In this document: piece after piece, positions 38,239 through 48,318 of the stretch
Position numbering within the stretch: position 1 is the first letter of the stretch
Layout: every line of letters begins with the position of its first letter
Assembly (NCBI GenBank): GCA_022340425.1
Contig: JAJDNY010000199.1
Coordinates: 1 to 48,419, forward strand
Source of the DNA: Desulfobacteraceae bacterium
GTDB taxonomy: Bacteria; Desulfobacterota; Desulfobacteria; Desulfobacterales; JAABRJ01
Length of the DNA stretch: 48,419 bases
Direction of reading: 5' to 3'
Notes under the pieces: generated by a model
Database searches by the model: none
Seen by the model: the letters and a program-made list of their open reading frames with translations, nothing else
What the model was told of the DNA's origin: nothing
Position numbers and translations under genes: made by a program

Positions 38239-38345
38239 GAGGACCTCCTTTTGTGAAACTCTGAAACCAACCTAAAATGCGAACCAAAGCCGGAGGCGTC
38301 AACCGACTGCAGGGTTGTCCGCGCCGCCGGCAGGGGAGAAGCCCA

Positions 38346-38684
38346 ATGAACTACGAGGAGATTTTGTTCACCAGCGAGAATCCCGTGGGGATTCTGACCC
38401 TTAACCAGCCCGCCGAAGCCAAGGCCCTGGGCCTGGTCAACCGGGTGGTGCCCCGGGAGGCCCTGGAGGCCGAAACCCTCGCCCTGGCGCGCCAGATCGC
38501 CGGCGCCAGTCGTCTGGTACTGGCCATCGGCAAACAGGGGTTTTACGACCAGATTGATCAGCCCGATGACGCGGCCCTGAATTACGCCAAGCACACCATC
38601 GCCCTGAACCTGGGCGGCGAGGATGCCCAGGAGGGGATCCGCGCCTACCTTGAAAAACGGACCCCCGAATGGAAAGACCGTTGA
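38346..38684 (+). pseudogene. Enoyl-CoA hydratase/isomerase remnant with internal deletion
   Basis: 112 residues in one open frame, whereas crotonases have about 260. The first 21 residues match a crotonase N-terminus (NYEEILFTSENPVGILTLNQP). The next residues already match the region after the active site (AEAKALGLVNRVVP), and the rest matches the C-terminus (EDAQEGIRAYLEKR). About 140 codons, with both oxyanion-hole strands and the catalytic Glu residues, are missing in frame. It cannot be an active hydratase. GGGGAGAAG precedes the ATG, so a short protein may still be made. Confidence 0.8.
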
Positions 38685-40108: not shown

Positions 40109-40259
40109 AGCGGCGGCGTCCATCTCGATTTCACCACGGTGCTTGGGACGCGTTGCGGGTTTGGGGGCCAAACCTTGCCGCTGCAGCCAGGCGCGCCCTT
40201 CGTTGCACCTCAAATACCCTTCGCACCCCGAGTTTTGTGCGGCTGAGTTTTTGAGTGCA

Positions 40260-40290
40260 GCGGATGGCTACAGCAGGTGTAGCTATCCGC
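40260..40290. other. Strong hairpin in the intergenic region
   Basis: GCGGATGGCTACA pairs with TGTAGCTATCCGC (13 bp with one G-T) around a GCAGG loop. No T tract follows on either strand, so a simple terminator is unlikely; a protein site or RNA element is possible. Confidence 0.6.
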
Positions 40291-40410
40291 AACAGGTCAA
40301 GTAACCCACCTTAATTCCAACCTTTGGTTCGGTCCCGGCACCCTCTGTCCAGGGGAGTGTGGCCGTTTGAATCACCCCGGCTGCTCCGCCTTCCCCGTCC
40401 GCCCGCTTCC

Positions 40411-40457
40411 GATATGAATCAAAATAAGACATTATTTCATTAAGTTAGTTTCATATC
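40411..40457. promoter_or_regulatory. AT-rich dyad, candidate activator site for the sigma-54 promoter
   Basis: GATATGAA (40411-40418) and TTCATATC (40450-40457) are a perfect 8-base inverted repeat. Between them AAATAA-GACA-TTATTT adds an inner dyad. The centre is about 70 bases before the expected transcription start of the sigma-54 promoter. The GC drop is abrupt against the surroundings. Confidence 0.55.
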
Positions 40458-40476
40458 CGGCAGTGGTCTGGCCGCC

Positions 40477-40492
40477 TGGCACCCGGCTTGCT
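40477..40492 (+). promoter_or_regulatory. Sigma-54 (RpoN) promoter
   Basis: TGGCAC-CCGGC-TTGCT matches the consensus TGGCAC-N5-TTGCW at every defined position, with the invariant GG and GC ten bases apart. Expected start of transcription is near 40503, giving a leader of about 50 bases to the cysteine-rich gene. An NtrC-type activator is encoded nearby at 42416-43768. Confidence 0.85.
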
Positions 40493-40553
40493 GTTTATCG
40501 GGGGCAACCGCCGCAGACCCCATCGGTTTGCCGCCATGAAGGAGGTGAGTGCC

Positions 40554-40742
40554 ATGACCAGACGCCGTCTGTCCCCCATTGTTGCCTGCCCGCTGGCATC
40601 CGAAGTGGGAATCCCCAGAAACTGCATGCGAAATCAGGCCTGTCAGCGCTGCGCTTTCGCCGAGTGGGTGGATGACACCTGCCCGGAGTGCGTCACGCTC
40701 CCGGCCCTTGAGGCCCCGGAAGCCCTCGCCTCTGCGGCATGA
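40554..40742 (+). CDS. Small cysteine-rich protein with CX5CX2CA[FY] motif
   Basis: 62 residues, no signal peptide. Cys residues: one at position 11, then C-MRNQA-C-QR-C-AF near residues 24-35, then CPEC near residue 42. The motif C-X5-C-X2-C-A-[FY] occurs twice more in the next gene product. It probably binds zinc or an iron-sulfur cluster. The start has a near-perfect ribosome site, AAGGAGGTGA, and lies about 50 bases after the sigma-54 promoter start. I do not recognise a named family. Likely translated together with the GcvH-like gene 118 bases downstream. Confidence 0.8.
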   Translation: MTRRRLSPIVACPLASEVGIPRNCMRNQACQRCAFAEWVDDTCPECVTLPALEAPEALASAA

Positions 40743-40860
40743 AGGTGTTTCCGGGCACCGCCTTATCGACGCCCTCCCCGTCGGGTGCCAAAAGTCGCCC
40801 CGGGGGAGGAGAGACCCGCCGCCGCACACCAGGCGTGGCCGGTGGCGAAGGAGGACCCCC

Positions 40861-41796
40861 ATGAAAGCGTCATCCAAAACCAAAATTCAGGGATTTCAGG
40901 TCGTGGAAAAGGAATGCATCTGGATGAAGGCCGGCGTGATCAATTTCAGGATCTGTGATTCGGCTTACGACTGCAGCCGCTGCGCCTTCGACAAGGGGAT
41001 GCGGCGGGCCATGGGGATCGACCCCGCGGCGCGCACCGAAAAGATCGCCCCTGAGTGGGCCGCCCATCTGCAGAAGAAATTCGCCGGCGCCGATAGGCCG
41101 TGCCGCCACAGTTTGACCGGGCGGGTGCAGGCCCCCAAAATCTGCATGCTGAATTACGAGTGCTATCACTGCGCCTACGATCAGATGCTCGACGACATGG
41201 ACCTCAGTCCGTCGACCCGCCGGCCCCGGACCGTCCTGGCCGGAGGCTATCTCCTGGCCGAGGACTATTACTACCACCCGGGCCACAGTTGGGTGCGCAT
41301 CGAGCACGGCGGGCGCAGCCGGGTCGGCCTGGATGACTTCGCCGCCTGCCTCTTCGGCCCTTCCCGGCAGGTCACGCTGCCGCCCCTGGGGGCCGTGGTC
41401 CAGCAGAATCAGATCGGCTGGAGCTTCCAGCGTGACGGGCGCGAAGCCGCGGTTCTGTCGCCCCTTTCGGGAACGGTCCTGGCCGTCAACCCCGACGTCC
41501 AGGCGCACCCCGAAATCCTCCATGAGGACCCGTACCATGGGGGCTGGCTCTTCATGGCGGAGCCCACACGGCCACACAAGGATTTGAAGAATCTGTTTTT
41601 CGGCGATCAGAGCCGCTGCTGGATGGAGTCCGAGTCGGAGCACCTGCTGGGCATGATGGGGCCGGAGTACGGGGGACTGGCCGCAACCGGCAGCCGCGGC
41701 ATTCGGGATGTGGTGGGCGCCGTGGACCGGCTGGATTGGAATGCCCTGACCGAGCGGTTTCTGCAAACCGTGACCCGCCCCCCGGCCGGGGTGTGA
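40861..41796 (+). CDS. GcvH-like protein with N-terminal cysteine motifs, no lipoyl lysine
   Basis: 311 residues. The N-terminal 120 residues hold two C-X5-C-X2-C-A-[FY] motifs (CDSAYDCSRCAF near 30-41; CMLNYECYHCAY near 97-108). The middle, about residues 135-230, is a glycine cleavage H-protein-like barrel: HPGHSWVRIE, VGLDDFA, LPPLGAVV, VLSPLSGTVLAVN and GWLF. The loop that should present the lipoyl lysine reads RDGREAAVLSP and has no Lys, so it cannot be lipoylated at the usual site. A C-terminal tail of 80 residues follows. A redox, cluster-carrier or regulatory role is possible; glycine cleavage is unlikely. GAAGGAGG precedes the ATG. Confidence 0.82.
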   Translation: MKASSKTKIQGFQVVEKECIWMKAGVINFRICDSAYDCSRCAFDKGMRRAMGIDPAARTEKIAPEWAAHLQKKFAGADRPCRHSLTGRVQAPKICMLNYECYHCAYDQMLDDMDLSPSTRRPRTVLAGGYLLAEDYYYHPGHSWVRIEHGGRSRVGLDDFAACLFGPSRQVTLPPLGAVVQQNQIGWSFQRDGREAAVLSPLSGTVLAVNPDVQAHPEILHEDPYHGGWLFMAEPTRPHKDLKNLFFGDQSRCWMESESEHLLGMMGPEYGGLAATGSRGIRDVVGAVDRLDWNALTERFLQTVTRPPAGV

Positions 41797-41817: not shown

Positions 41818-42414
41818 CTACGGCTGGCAGAGGCGCTGGTCAAGCTGGCGCCGGCAATAGCGGCACAGGGCCAGGCGCCGCTGGTCCAGTTCGTGGACGT
41901 CGCCGGAGATATGCATCACACACAACGGGTCGGGGCAGTGGACGATGCCGAAGAGGTGACCCAACTCGTGGAGCGCCACCTTGGCGCAGCGCTCCAGAAG
42001 CGTGGGCTGGGGAGAAGCGCCCGGTCCATCTTTTTCCGCCAGGCGGCACAGCGACACCAGGGCGCATCTGCCCCCCTGGCGCGCTTCGCCCAGAACGTAG
42101 GTGAAAATCGGAACAAAAAGGTCGCCTTCCACGACCCCGATCCATTTCCGGCAGCCCGGGAAGGCCTCCCGCTCCAGGCGCTGGATGATCTTGCCGGCGT
42201 CGAACTGCATGCGACCCGCATCCAGGGCATACACCGGCGCGGGCAAGCCCGGCAGCACCTCGGCCGGCAGTCCGAAAAACGCGTGGATGTGCGCGGCCAC
42301 CACCCGGGGGGCCACCGCCGGGACCCGGCCCATGGCTGCCACGCAGATTTTTTCGGTGGCTGGGCGATCGGGAGGCTGGCGAGGCGCTAGAGCTTGCCGG
42401 TTGGCGGGCGCCAT
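41818..42414 (-). CDS. amzA: Archaemetzincin-family zinc metalloprotease
   Basis: 198 residues. The extended zinc motif HELGHLFGIVHC, followed by PDPLC-VM and a CRYC pair 16 residues later, is the archaemetzincin signature: one catalytic zinc and one structural zinc on four Cys. The protein has no signal peptide and is a likely cytoplasmic aminopeptidase/protease; physiological substrates of this family are unknown. It begins one base after the stop of the sigma-54 activator gene, so it is the third gene of a kinase-regulator-protease operon. It is convergent to the GcvH-like gene. Confidence 0.92.
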   Translation of the reverse strand: MAPANRQALAPRQPPDRPATEKICVAAMGRVPAVAPRVVAAHIHAFFGLPAEVLPGLPAPVYALDAGRMQFDAGKIIQRLEREAFPGCRKWIGVVEGDLFVPIFTYVLGEARQGGRCALVSLCRLAEKDGPGASPQPTLLERCAKVALHELGHLFGIVHCPDPLCVMHISGDVHELDQRRLALCRYCRRQLDQRLCQP

Positions 42415-42415
42415 A

Positions 42416-43768
42416 TCACCTCTGCGGCCCCCGGGAGAGCTGAAGCCGCTTGATCTTGCGGTGCAGCGTCACACGGTTGATGCCCAGCACCGCGGCGGCG
42501 CGGGTGATGTTTCCGGCGCAGTCATCCAGCACCTGTCGGATGTATCCCTTCTCCATCTCCAGCAGGGACCCGCCGGGTGCCGGCTTGGTCTGAGCGGCAT
42601 GCAGGAAAGCGAAGTCGTCGACCCCCAGCAGGGGCCCCGTGGACAGCACGACAGCCCGCTCGATGGCGTTTTCAAGTTCGCGGACATTGCCCCGCCAGCG
42701 ATAGCCTTGCAGCATTTTCAGGGCCGCTTGGGAAATATGGTCGACCTTGCGGCCGGTTTCGTGACTGATCTTGGACAGAAAATGGCGCGCCAGCAGGGGG
42801 ATGTCCTCCTTTCGCTCCCGGAGCGGGGGAATGGCGATGCGGATGACGTGGATCCGGTAGAAAAAGTCCTCCCGGAAACGGCCGGCGGCGATTTCCTTTT
42901 CCAGGTCCTTGCAGGTGGCGGTGATCAGGCGAAAGTCGACCGGGACGGTCTGGCTGCTGCCCACCCGCGAAATGCGCCGCTCCTCCAATACGCGCAGCAG
43001 GTCGATCTGCATCTTCATGCCGATCTCGCCGATCTCATCCAGAAAGAGGGTCCCGCCGCTGACCACCTCCAGAAACCCCTTGCGGGGGTGGGTCGCCCCG
43101 GTAAAGGCCCCCTTCTGGTGACCGAACAATTCGGTTTCCAGAAGGTTTTCCGGCATCGCCCCGCAGTTGAGCGCCACAAACGGGTGGTGCGCGCGGCGGC
43201 TTTTGGCATGGATCGCCTTGGCGACCAACTCTTTGCCCGTTCCGGTCTCTCCGGTCAGCAGCACCGACGTGTCCTGATCGGCCACCTGCGTGATGGTGTC
43301 GAAAACCGCCTGCATGGGGGCGGAGCGGCCGATGATGTTTTCGAAGCGGGTTTTCTTTTCCAGCTGCGCCTTCAGGTAGTTGCACTCCCGGGCCATGTCC
43401 AGCTGCTGATCGATCTTCTCCATCACCAGCGTCAAGTATTCGGGCTTGAAGGGCTTGATCAGATAATCGCTGGCCCCCTTTTTCATGGCCTCGACGGCCG
43501 ATTCGATGGACCCGTAGGCGGTAATGATGACCACCACGGCGGCGGGGTATTCGGCCTTGATCCTTTCCAGCAGCTCGATCCCGTTCATCCCCGGCATCTT
43601 GACGTCCACAAAGAGCAGTTCGGCCGGACGGCCGGCCATCTTCTCCAGGGCCTCCGCGCCCGAGGCGGCGGTCGCCACGGCGTAGCCGCCGTTTTTGAAC
43701 CAATGGAACAGGGATTCGCGCACGATGCGCTCGTCATCGACAACCAGGATCTCGGGTTTGCTCTTCAT
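42416..43768 (-). CDS. NtrC-family sigma-54-dependent response regulator
   Basis: 450 residues. Receiver domain with phosphoacceptor Asp55 (FVDVKMPG). AAA+ domain with Walker A GETGTGKE near residue 168, the sigma-54 contact loop GAFTGA near residue 217, Walker B FLDEIGE, and RWRGNVRELENAIERAV. The C-terminal Fis-type helix-turn-helix is NITRAAAVLGINRVTLHRKIKRL. It activates sigma-54 promoters after phosphorylation by the kinase encoded just before it (ATGA overlap). The only strong sigma-54 promoter I see nearby is at 40477, for the cysteine-rich/GcvH-like operon, a likely target. Confidence 0.96.
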   Translation of the reverse strand: MKSKPEILVVDDERIVRESLFHWFKNGGYAVATAASGAEALEKMAGRPAELLFVDVKMPGMNGIELLERIKAEYPAAVVVIITAYGSIESAVEAMKKGASDYLIKPFKPEYLTLVMEKIDQQLDMARECNYLKAQLEKKTRFENIIGRSAPMQAVFDTITQVADQDTSVLLTGETGTGKELVAKAIHAKSRRAHHPFVALNCGAMPENLLETELFGHQKGAFTGATHPRKGFLEVVSGGTLFLDEIGEIGMKMQIDLLRVLEERRISRVGSSQTVPVDFRLITATCKDLEKEIAAGRFREDFFYRIHVIRIAIPPLRERKEDIPLLARHFLSKISHETGRKVDHISQAALKMLQGYRWRGNVRELENAIERAVVLSTGPLLGVDDFAFLHAAQTKPAPGGSLLEMEKGYIRQVLDDCAGNITRAAAVLGINRVTLHRKIKRLQLSRGPQR

Positions 43769-45357
43769 GGCGCGCCTTTTGGCCGGTCGTTGGCGGCATC
43801 GGTCTGGGGAAAAGTGAGCACGAAGCGGCAGCCAGCACCCGGCCGGCTGTCCACGGCGATATCGCCGCGATTCGCCTTGACCGTGTCATAGACGATGGAC
43901 AACCCCAATCCCGTCCCCTGGCCGGCGGGCTTTGTGGTGAAAAACGGGGTGAAGATCTTGTCCTGGTGTTCTTCCGGGATCCCCATACCGGTGTCCGCGA
44001 TCTCGATCTCAATCTGTTTCTTTTCGCGATCGCGTCGGGAGCAAACGCTCAGGGTGCCGCCATCGGGCATGGCTTCAAGGGCATTGAAGACCAGATTGAG
44101 AATGCATTGCTGCAGGCGCAGGGTGTCGCCGCTGAGGGTCAGCGGGGTTTTGGACAGGCACGTCCGGAGGGTGATCCCCTGCATCTGCATCTTGTGACGG
44201 GTCAGGGAGATCACCGAGGCGATGGTGTCGTTGACATCGATGGTCTTGGACTGCACCGGCCGTTCACGGGAAAAGGAGAGGAGGCCGGAAACGATGCGGC
44301 CGCATCGTTCCAGTTCCTCGGCCATCATGGTCAGGTATTGCCGGAATTCCGCAGCCTGGGCGGCCGGAAGCCCGTCGTCGGTGAGCATCGACTGCATCAC
44401 CGAGGTGAAGGTCAACAACCCTTGAATCGGGTTGTTGATTTCATGAACGCAACCGGCCACCAACTTTCCCAGGGAAATCATGCGGTCTTCCTGGACGAGC
44501 TTTTTGAATTCCAGTTTGAGCTTCTGGTAACGGCCGTTCCAGCGGGACTCGATCTCACTGCTGATATCGCGCCAGATTTCGATCACCCGGATGATGGTGC
44601 CGTCGGGATCGATGAGCGGGTAGGTGACGATGTTTCCGAAAGATGCCTCGAAACCCGATCCGGCCATCTCGTGGATGACATGCGCGGACTTGCCCGTGCG
44701 CAGGGTCTCGATCATGGGGCACTGCAAATCGGGCCGGGCATGCGGGCAGGGCATGCTCAGCCCGTGGGAAACCTCGTAGCAGTAGGCCCCGACCACTTCC
44801 TTCTTGGCCTTGTGGACTTTTTTGAGAAACGCCTCGTTGGCTTCGACCACGGTGAAATCGGTGTTCAGAACGACAATGGCCGCATTGCTGTGCTGGATCA
44901 GGATGTCGGTGGACATCTTTTCCAGGACCACCTGGCGTTCCAGCGACTTCATGCGCTGGTCGGTCATGAACAGAGACCGCAGCAGCCGCCCGATGTTGTG
45001 TTCGATGACGCCCACCCCCTTGGGTCGGGCGGCGATCAGTTCGATGAGCAATTTGCGGCTGTTGGTCAGCTCGACGATGCTGTCGAGATGTTCGATGGCG
45101 AAAAGATCCCGATAATCGCGGGTGGTGAAAATCCCCATCTCACGGGCCAATTGAAACCCCTCGGCCCTGGGGTCGGTGTCACACACGCCGACGACGTGGA
45201 TATCCAGCAGGGGGAAAGGCTCTCTTTTAAGAAGCTCCAGGAAGTACCGGCAGGCCCGCCCGCCACCGACAATGGCCAGGTTGAGGGGTATTTTCTTCAA
45301 TTCCTCCCCCTCGGGGCCACGGCCGCGGTCTGACTTGGAAGAAACCACAAATTCCAT
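43765..45357 (-). CDS. Histidine kinase with N-terminal Rossmann-like domain and PAS domain
   Basis: 530 residues, no membrane helices, so a cytoplasmic sensor. Residues 20-150 look like a dinucleotide-binding Rossmann fold (LAIVGGGRACRYFLELL; VGVCDTDPRAEG; LDSIVELTN). A PAS domain follows (about 150-280) with a Cys cluster (CYEVSHGLSMPCP...LQCP). HisKA shows the phospho-His in GCVHEINNPIQG near residue 346; the ATPase domain has NLVFNALEA, DTGMGIPEE and GTGLGLSIVYD. It phosphorylates the regulator encoded next. The start at 45357 is the first one that gives a sensible N-terminus; its ribosome site is weak. Confidence 0.92.
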   Translation of the reverse strand: MEFVVSSKSDRGRGPEGEELKKIPLNLAIVGGGRACRYFLELLKREPFPLLDIHVVGVCDTDPRAEGFQLAREMGIFTTRDYRDLFAIEHLDSIVELTNSRKLLIELIAARPKGVGVIEHNIGRLLRSLFMTDQRMKSLERQVVLEKMSTDILIQHSNAAIVVLNTDFTVVEANEAFLKKVHKAKKEVVGAYCYEVSHGLSMPCPHARPDLQCPMIETLRTGKSAHVIHEMAGSGFEASFGNIVTYPLIDPDGTIIRVIEIWRDISSEIESRWNGRYQKLKLEFKKLVQEDRMISLGKLVAGCVHEINNPIQGLLTFTSVMQSMLTDDGLPAAQAAEFRQYLTMMAEELERCGRIVSGLLSFSRERPVQSKTIDVNDTIASVISLTRHKMQMQGITLRTCLSKTPLTLSGDTLRLQQCILNLVFNALEAMPDGGTLSVCSRRDREKKQIEIEIADTGMGIPEEHQDKIFTPFFTTKPAGQGTGLGLSIVYDTVKANRGDIAVDSRPGAGCRFVLTFPQTDAANDRPKGAP

Positions 45358-46087: not shown

Positions 46088-47791
46088 ATGAAAACTTCGG
46101 ATCCAAAAACGCCGGTCGAACAGCCCAAGGACAGTCTAATCACCTCCCCTTTCCATTACCCGTCCAAGTGGCTGCAGCGGTTTGGCGACGTCCTGCTGTC
46201 GGCAACCGAACAGACCAAGGCGGCCCAGATTTACGCCAACGGCGTTTTGAAATATCTCGGAGAATTCACTGCGCCCTATTGGATCGCACTGAGTGCCTTC
46301 AACTCCACAGAGCGGAAAAAGCTGGGGCAGGTCCACCCCCTGGAGACCATGAGCGATTACATCGAACTGCTGCGGTTCAACCAGCAGGTGGCCGAAAAAG
46401 GGCTGGCCAGCACCCTGGAGTCCATGAACCTCTTTCACGCCCGCAAGGTCAGTGAAGGCTTTTTTGCGTGGCTCAACACCCTCTTGGGTCGCGAGAGCGA
46501 GGATATTGGCACCTTCACCGCCCGGCAGCGGGAGTTGATCGAAACCGTTGTCAATGGCTATCCCCAGGCCATTCGGGATATCAAACCCGAGTATGGTTTC
46601 GACTTCGAACACGGGGACTACCTGAAGGTCGCCGAAACCGAGCGCTTTTGCCTCTACCAGGTGTTTCCGCTGGCCGAAGGGGTCAATATCCGCGAAAACG
46701 GCAAACCGATTATCATCCTGCCCCCCTACGTCCTGGGAGCCAACATCCTGGCCTTTCTGCCGGGGGAAGGCAAAAGCTACGTGCACTGCTTTGCCAACCA
46801 GGGGATCCCCACCTATATCCGCATTCTGAAGGATATCGACACCACCCCGGCCGTGCAGACCATGACCGGTGAGGACGATGCGCGCGATACCCGCCATTTC
46901 TGTGAAACCCTCATGCGGCGGCACGGCCGCCAGGTCACCTTGAACGGTTTCTGTCAAGGCGGTTTTATCGCCATCCTGGATCTCCTCTCCGGCGAACTGG
47001 ATGGGCTGGTGGACGCCCTGATCACCTGCGTGACCCCCATGGACGGGACCCGCAGCAAGTCCCTGATAGAATACCTGTCGCACCTGCCGCCACGCTTCCG
47101 GGACCTGGGCTATGCCGTCAAAACCCTGCCCAACGGCAACCAGGTGGTGGACGGCTCGGTGATGAGCTGGGTTTACAAGCTCAAGAGCATGGAAAGCGAA
47201 GCCCCGCTTTTCTCGCTTTATCGGGACCTGATGATGTTCGACCGGCCGGGCCGTAAAAAGGTGACCATCAGCAAGACCGCGGCCGCCATCAATCACTGGC
47301 TGATCTATGAACGCAACGATCTGCCGGTGGCCATCACCCAGCTCAGCTTCGACTCCTATACCCGTCCGGTGCAAAAGGACGGCACCCTGCCGGTGAAGCT
47401 CTTCGGCCGTTCGCTGAATTTCAAGCGGCTGGCGGAAAAAGGCATCCGCTTCCTGATGTGCTACGCGGAAAGGGACAACCTCGTGGACCCGGAGGCTGTC
47501 CTGGCGCCGCTGGACTTTGTCGATGCCGAGGTGACCGTTTTCCCCAAGGGCCATGGGGCGATCGCCACCTCCTGGTCCCTTCCCACGGACTGCGTCATTC
47601 ATGACGGGAAGACGAGTCCCAACCTGCTCTGCTCCCGGGGGGCCAGCCCATCCTGCCGCATCAACCACTGCGGCGCTCAAAACTGCCGCGGGCCGGTGCG
47701 CTTCCAGCTCGACCTGGAGGAAGAGCTCCAGCCCACGGCGCCAAAAACCCGGCGGGTTGCCAAAACCAGACCCACAAGGAAGCCGAGGTGA
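46088..47791 (+). CDS. phaC: Poly(3-hydroxyalkanoate) synthase
   Basis: 567 residues. The alpha/beta-hydrolase core holds the lipase-like box GFCQGG (catalytic Cys near residue 300), Asp in ERDNLVDP (about 465) and His in PKGHGAIA (about 490), the Cys-Asp-His triad of PHA synthases. It polymerises hydroxyacyl-CoA into carbon-storage granules. The 150-residue N-terminal region is helical. Between the catalytic His and the family ending [10 protein letters not shown] there is an unusual stretch of about 40 residues with five Cys, and the tail is Lys/Arg/Pro-rich. GGAG lies ten bases before the ATG. No phaA, phaB or phaE gene is adjacent. Confidence 0.9.
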
Positions 47792-48318
47792 CCGCCGCCA
47801 ACCGTGACCGGATCGAAGCCCGACAGGGCGATATCACCCAATTGACCGTGGATGCCATCGTCAACGCCGCCAACCAGACCCTGCTCGGCGGCGGCGGGGT
47901 GGACGGCGCCATTCACCGTGCGGCGGGGCCCGAGCTCCTGGCGGAGTGTCGCACCCTGGGCGGCTGCCCCACCGGGGAGGCGCGCTTGACCCGCGGCTAC
48001 CGCCTGCCGGCGCGCTACGTGATCCACACCGTCGGGCCGGTCTACCGCGGCCACCCGCGCGACAGCCGGCTGCTGGCCGCCTGCTACCAGAACAGTCTGC
48101 AGTTGGCCGTGGACCACGGGCTGCACTCGATCGCCTTTCCGGCCATCAGCTGCGGGGTTTACGGCTACCCCATCCGCGAGGCCTGCCGGGTTGCCGTGGA
48201 TACCACCCTGGCCTTCGTCGAACGGTATCCCAGCATCGAAAAAGTGATCTTCATGCTCTTCTCCCCGGGCGATCTGGCGGTCTACCAAGACTATCTCGCC
48301 CGCCGCGGCTCTATCTGA
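47788..48318 (+). CDS. Macro-domain protein, O-acetyl-ADP-ribose deacetylase-like
   Basis: 176 residues. The ADP-ribose site is shown by [31 protein letters not shown]-type sequence from residue 14, by [24 protein letters not shown] near residue 60 and by [13 protein letters not shown] near residue 115. This fits the YmdB class of macro domains that hydrolyse O-acetyl-ADP-ribose or remove ADP-ribose from proteins or nucleic acids. The GTG start overlaps the phaC stop (GTGA), so translation is coupled to phaC. The length is typical. Confidence 0.94.

Follow-up and report, generated by a model that had tools for sequence, protein, structure and literature searches.

A conserved gene module of Desulfobacterota with a sigma-54 promoter, a GcvH-like protein lacking the lipoyl lysine, a two-component system and an archaemetzincin

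Among the described systems closest to the locus reported here, LbpA, which binds lipoate in the sulfur-oxidising Hdr-like (sHdr) pathway, strictly conserves its lipoyl lysine and also has two conserved cysteines (PMC6067878), and locus VIII of Desulfobacterium autotrophicum HRM2 is described as containing tandem HdrL/HdrA4, FdhB, HdrB and HdrC (PMC2702500).

Our locus lies in a 48,419-nucleotide stretch of DNA from a Desulfobacteraceae bacterium, which we refer to as the window. Here a sigma-54 promoter precedes two genes, for a small cysteine-rich protein (the mini-protein) and for a GcvH-like protein (GcvHL), and a convergent operon encodes a histidine kinase, an NtrC-type response regulator and an archaemetzincin. 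This five-gene module is real and widespread in sulfate-reducing and related bacteria, and is apparently undescribed; among open-licence papers we found no description of the combination of archaemetzincin, GcvH-like protein, sigma-54 and Hdr, nor of an archaemetzincin in a two-component operon beside GcvHL.

Proteins encoded at the locus

GcvHL (311 aa; 40861–41796 on the forward strand, with a strong ribosome site, GGAGG-N5-ATG, at 40861) consists of two four-cysteine (Cys4) units (C19-C32-C38-C41 and C81-C95-C101-C104), a GcvH-fold domain at about residues 130–260 and a conserved C-terminal extension. AlphaFold2 predicts the GcvH fold confidently for residues 130–260 (the mean pLDDT of the whole model is 83), and residues 130–264 of the model align with the GcvH structure 1htp at Z 19.1 and rmsd 1.4 over 131 residues, with 27–28% sequence identity to GcvH over about 128 residues. 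All eight cysteines are invariant in the 69 relatives' sequences that we aligned. The lipoyl lysine, in contrast, is present in only one of these 69 family members, the column being occupied mostly by G, D, S or N (G in the window protein), and in one of 11 further relatives that are fused, anchored or diverged in another way. This agrees with a preliminary description of the locus in which the protein had been called non-lipoylatable, and lipoylation is predicted from this column to be excluded across the GcvHL family. No GcvH-type NCBIfam model reaches its cut-off on GcvHL (59.2 bits against 115.85 for TIGR00527, and 31 against 150 for NF045810, GcvH_rel_desulf). Judged by its sequence, with two four-cysteine units and no lipoyl lysine, GcvHL is not a glycine-cleavage protein.

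The mini-protein (62 aa; 40554–40742 on the forward strand, with a strong ribosome site, AAGGAGGTGA-N5-ATG, at 40554) is a free-standing copy of the Cys4 unit of GcvHL and ends in -AA. The shared motif, C-x11-13-C-x5-C-x2-C-x-F, occurs once in the mini-protein, with the spacing C-x11-C-x5-C-x2-C, and twice in GcvHL, so that the cysteine motif which the preliminary description had seen in both products of the promoter is indeed common to them; the gene pair itself also stands, with the bounds of both genes corrected to those given here. The mini-protein gene lies between the promoter and GcvHL in about 30 of 81 loci, and in two of them the product still has both units, one of which is degenerate. 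It probably arose as a partial copy of the N-terminus of GcvHL. A known RNA element between the two genes was considered, but the interval has no Rfam match.

The convergent operon, on the reverse strand, has the gene order and domains first ascribed to it. The histidine kinase (43765–45357) combines a Rossmann domain with PAS and HisKA/HATPase domains; G31-G33 and D60 of the Rossmann domain are invariant, as are C193, C204 and C213 of the PAS domain, and a homologue of the kinase scores over the cut-off of NAD-binding Pfam models. An invariant GGG and D60 are typical of NAD-binding Rossmann domains. The NtrC-type response regulator (42416–43768) has a receiver, an AAA+ domain with GAFTGA and a Fis-type HTH. 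The archaemetzincin (M54; 41818–42414) retains an intact HELGHLFGIVHC...CVM...CRYC site with all catalytic and zinc-knuckle residues of the M54 motif (HExxHxxGxxHCx4CxM...CxxC) and is a predicted peptidase; it matches PDB 2x7m at 1.7e-20 and reaches 137 bits with NF033823, below the cut-off of 145. Elsewhere in the window we note an enoyl-CoA hydratase-like ORF at 38277–38684 whose middle part is seemingly missing (an internal deletion or a remnant), and a gene for a macro-domain-like protein at 47788–48318, near the contig end.

Conservation of the neighbourhood and its promoter

As relatives we used the best 80 loci from a profile scan with one genome per species (84,980 species), picked on GcvHL similarity only. 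In the 63 loci with enough flanking sequence, the archaemetzincin adjoins GcvHL in 61, the NtrC-type regulator in 59, the kinase in 55 and all three in 55, with a median distance of 38 bp between the archaemetzincin and GcvHL genes. Gene order and strand differ by lineage, with divergent, convergent and entirely co-directional arrangements, yet the gene set is retained. We also drew 297 genomes evenly from the phylum as an independent sample, in which about a quarter of the species encode a member of the GcvHL family (E below about 1e-20, among the matches listed); an archaemetzincin was found in 69 of these 73 genomes compared with 33 of the other 224 (Fisher 8e-37, with relatedness ignored), and in 61 of the 69 genomes having both it is encoded within 5 kb of GcvHL. 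The neighbourhood that had been proposed as one regulated module is thus conserved in Desulfobacterota, as the four genes for GcvHL and its three partners. A plasmid location of the relatives was considered and rejected, the best matches among plasmid records being only ordinary gcvH. We also observed a second group of GcvHL paralogues (loci L133–L139, e.g. L135:8193–10200) which occur as tandem pairs, often also beside archaemetzincin, NtrC and kinase genes.

The full sigma-54 promoter reported in the preliminary description (TGGCACCCGGCTTGCT at 40477–40492 on the forward strand, of the form TGGCAC-N5-TTGCT) is present and is kept in relatives, with strict −24/−12 sites in 53 of 81 loci, located 5' of GcvHL or of the mini-protein gene where there is one, against 0.5% in shuffled sequences; most of the loci without a strict site that we inspected have a near-match at the equivalent place. 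The AT-rich dyad that had been noted upstream of it (about 40415–40446, between enhancer and promoter) did not hold up as an activator site, since its sequence is not conserved and only AT-richness at −20 to −60 is kept across loci, as composition. What is conserved is a 19-bp inverted repeat with the consensus gTGTtGC-N5-GCaACAc, obtained by de novo motif search, usually in two to three copies per locus spaced about 22 and 80 bp apart. The window has three such sites on the forward strand: UAS1 (GTGCAGCGGATGGCTACAG, 40255–40273, score 11.7), which lies 22 bp from UAS2, a pairing seen in many relatives; UAS2 itself, the best enhancer site (GTGTAGCTATCCGCAACAG, 40277–40295, score 18.6); and UAS3 (GTGTGGCCGTTTGAATCAC, 40357–40375, score 16.4), 80 bp downstream of UAS2. 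They are at −221, −199 and −119 relative to the −24 element, and promoter and array recur at the same spacing in relatives. The two occur together in 60 of 79 loci compared with 1 of 3160 shuffles, a comparison that is partly circular as 53 of the same loci had served to train the weight matrices.

The 3.97-Mb genome to which the window belongs contains 19 matches to TGGCAYN5TTGCW including the window promoter, which is the only one with the array, and on this basis the two-component system appears to serve only its neighbour. A wide regulon was rejected at the level of exact-dyad matches and strict sigma-54 sites, which coincide in this genome solely at the window promoter. The locus thus has the parts of a sigma-54-dependent two-component regulon, namely the −24/−12 promoter at 40477 and an activator with phosphoacceptor, GAFTGA and HTH, and from their adjacency and co-conservation it seems that the NtrC-type regulator would bind the inverted-repeat array and serve the GcvHL promoter as a dedicated local activator. 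A separate cluster of four strict sigma-54 sites, on both strands within 3 kb, was seen elsewhere in the same genome (contig C14, 77–80 kb; L158–L161).

Links to electron-transfer complexes

Relatives of GcvHL are found as parts of, or next to, electron-transfer proteins. The GcvH-like domain is fused C-terminally to Hdr subunits in three loci, forming part of an HdrA2-like/Fer4/FlpD/molybdopterin-binding protein in two (L149:8603–11521 and L151:6135–9101, clustered with HdrA, MvhD and, by our reading of the sequences, metF/metV-like genes) and of an HdrA protein in the third (L050:5704–9108). It is also C-terminal in a NuoG/HoxU-like Fer2+Fer4 protein with a Cys4 unit of its own, encoded next to NuoE/NuoF and HdrA (L088, 8177–9529, and L089). 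These fusions are apparently undescribed domain architectures. Membrane-anchored relatives are encoded directly after nrfD in a further three loci (L145:8564–10530, L148:8855–10824 and L152:15565–19152), the last of which also has cytochrome c3 and a 4Fe-4S protein beside nrfD.

Within 10 kb of GcvHL, 21 of 80 loci have genes of an HdrL-MvhD-FdhB-HdrA4-HdrC-HdrB operon, variously arranged, and in four loci (L072, L082, L088 and L089) HdrL comes next after GcvHL, 29–155 bp away in the same orientation, behind a promoter of the same sigma-54 type. Hdr-type genes are numerous in the genomes searched (19–48 matches each). HdrL at more than 60% identity is present as one copy in each of the four genomes having it (eight searched), and because it is single-copy, 20 kb taken from about 5 Mb of genome would be expected to contain it by chance well under once in 80 loci. 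It should be noted that the flanking DNA examined contains no Hdr gene in most loci, and that the genome of the window carries its HdrL operon on a different contig (C28), where neither a UAS nor a recognisable sigma-54 promoter precedes it. We rejected the idea that the same array controls the HdrL operon, as no consistent UAS was found upstream of HdrL in 11 loci, six of which have weak sigma-54-like sites 540–760 bp upstream (L053, L056–L059 and L068). In several loci HdrL is preceded by short receiver-like ORFs (about 145–186 aa).

Possible roles and comparison with known systems

The idea of a metal- or cluster-dependent carrier, put forward in the preliminary description, is consistent with the invariant cysteines and may be narrowed by the Hdr, NuoG-like and NrfD fusions and operons. 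We lean slightly towards a role of GcvHL in Hdr-type (flavin-based bifurcating) complexes, as an accessory or electron-relay subunit whose production is inducible and is governed by a local two-component system that senses redox state. The kinase, with its NAD-type Rossmann domain and three-cysteine PAS domain, would sense the redox or NAD(H) state and phosphorylate the NtrC-type regulator, and this would occupy the TGTtGC-N5-GCaACA sites near −120, −200 and −220 and activate sigma-54 transcription of the mini-protein and GcvHL genes. The Hdr-type complexes that GcvHL would then join are cytoplasmic, mostly HdrL-MvhD-FdhB-HdrA4-HdrC-HdrB, and its Cys4 units would hold a putative cofactor; the mini-protein, as a lone Cys4 unit, may compete with, chaperone or report on GcvHL, and the archaemetzincin may be the module's dedicated peptidase. 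Several observations speak against this reading: the place of the HdrL operon in the window's genome, the lack of Hdr genes near most loci, the abundance of Hdr-type genes, and the Cys4 region of GcvHL, which has no convincing PDB counterpart by profile or Foldseek search, matches no known Fe-S or Zn fold in a model of modest confidence (pLDDT only 69), and so may be purely structural. A wider generalisation, which we regard as somewhat unlikely, is that anaerobic electron-transfer machines across Desulfobacterota (Hdr, NuoG-like and NrfD-type) have taken up a lipoate-free GcvH-fold domain as a general part, with Cys4 units that bind Fe-S forming a new relay and with a supply set by the redox-sensing sigma-54 system and a dedicated archaemetzincin.

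The four-cysteine units could instead bind zinc, in which case GcvHL and the mini-protein would buffer or sense metal or thiol in a stress module, the metzincin would be a metal-linked peptidase and the link to redox complexes would be indirect. We consider this unlikely. The invariant four-cysteine knuckles have weak similarity to zf-CHY (E 0.042, below the cut-off) and a zinc peptidase is nearly always encoded near GcvHL, and both would suit such a module. However, a metal buffer would not explain the fusions of the GcvH-like domain, sometimes without Cys4 units, with HdrA/FlpD and NuoG-like proteins, or its position after nrfD, and in the neighbour clusters, which we read by eye, no recurrent metal transporter family was obvious.

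Quite unlikely, in our view, is a proteolysis circuit in which the archaemetzincin and the mini-protein control the turnover of GcvHL, with the mini-protein as a short-lived decoy or adaptor; the preliminary description had also suggested that the protease could be a turnover factor. Such a circuit would account for the co-occurrence of GcvHL with a peptidase whose catalytic residues are conserved, and for the -AA end found in 21 of 26 aligned mini-proteins compared with 3 of 530 conserved-family genes of the same loci, the mini-protein tails being otherwise poorly conserved (40731–40742 in the window; L057–L129). This end is possibly an ssrA-like ClpXP degron. A strict pairing is nonetheless not seen, with the archaemetzincin nearly always present and the mini-protein in only the minority of loci given above. 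A lipoate or sulfur carrier comparable to the LbpA of sHdr systems, or else a glycine cleavage H protein, would be in keeping with the GcvH fold (Z 19 to 1htp) and with an association with Hdr-like enzymes as in LbpA (PMC6067878), but is very improbable given the near-absence of the lipoyl lysine and the sub-threshold GcvH-type model scores. Mere conserved synteny within one lineage, without functional linkage, is the least probable explanation, for although the close loci are mostly from Desulfobacterales-type genomes, the set persists through changes of order and strand and the archaemetzincin association holds in the evenly drawn phylum sample.

With the Hdr-subunit reading, a widespread family to which general models would attach the name 'glycine cleavage H' gains a testable role, and bacterial archaemetzincins gain a genomic partner. 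The HdrL-type complexes of sulfate reducers, which are poorly understood, gain a regulated accessory protein, whose promoter and enhancer array are defined and open to direct assay.

Compared with known systems, GcvHL has the fold of GcvH (PF01597, TIGR00527) but differs in lacking the lipoylation site, in having extra domains and in its low model score (59 against a cut-off of 116 bits). NF045810 is likewise a GcvH-related family with its own NCBI model, of which GcvHL is not a member. Like LbpA, GcvHL is GcvH-related, stands outside glycine cleavage and is encoded with Hdr-like enzymes, in its case near Hdr genes in the relatives' loci noted above and not in the window; unlike LbpA, it has two Cys4 units, a C-terminal extension and a sigma-54 promoter, is without the lipoyl lysine, and occurs in sulfate reducers and their relatives. 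The gene content described for locus VIII of D. autotrophicum fits the HdrL-MvhD-FdhB-HdrA4-HdrC-HdrB operon found beside the module, whereas neither a Gcv protein nor sigma-54 control is named in the text searched (PMC2702500). The archaemetzincin shares the full motif of its family (M54; NF033823, PDB 2x7m) and is distinguished by its setting in a two-component operon beside GcvHL. Finally, ZraSR/AtoSC-type systems also pair a kinase with an NtrC-type activator of a small local regulon, from which the present module differs by the Rossmann domain of its kinase, its TGTtGC-N5-GCaACA array and its GcvHL target.
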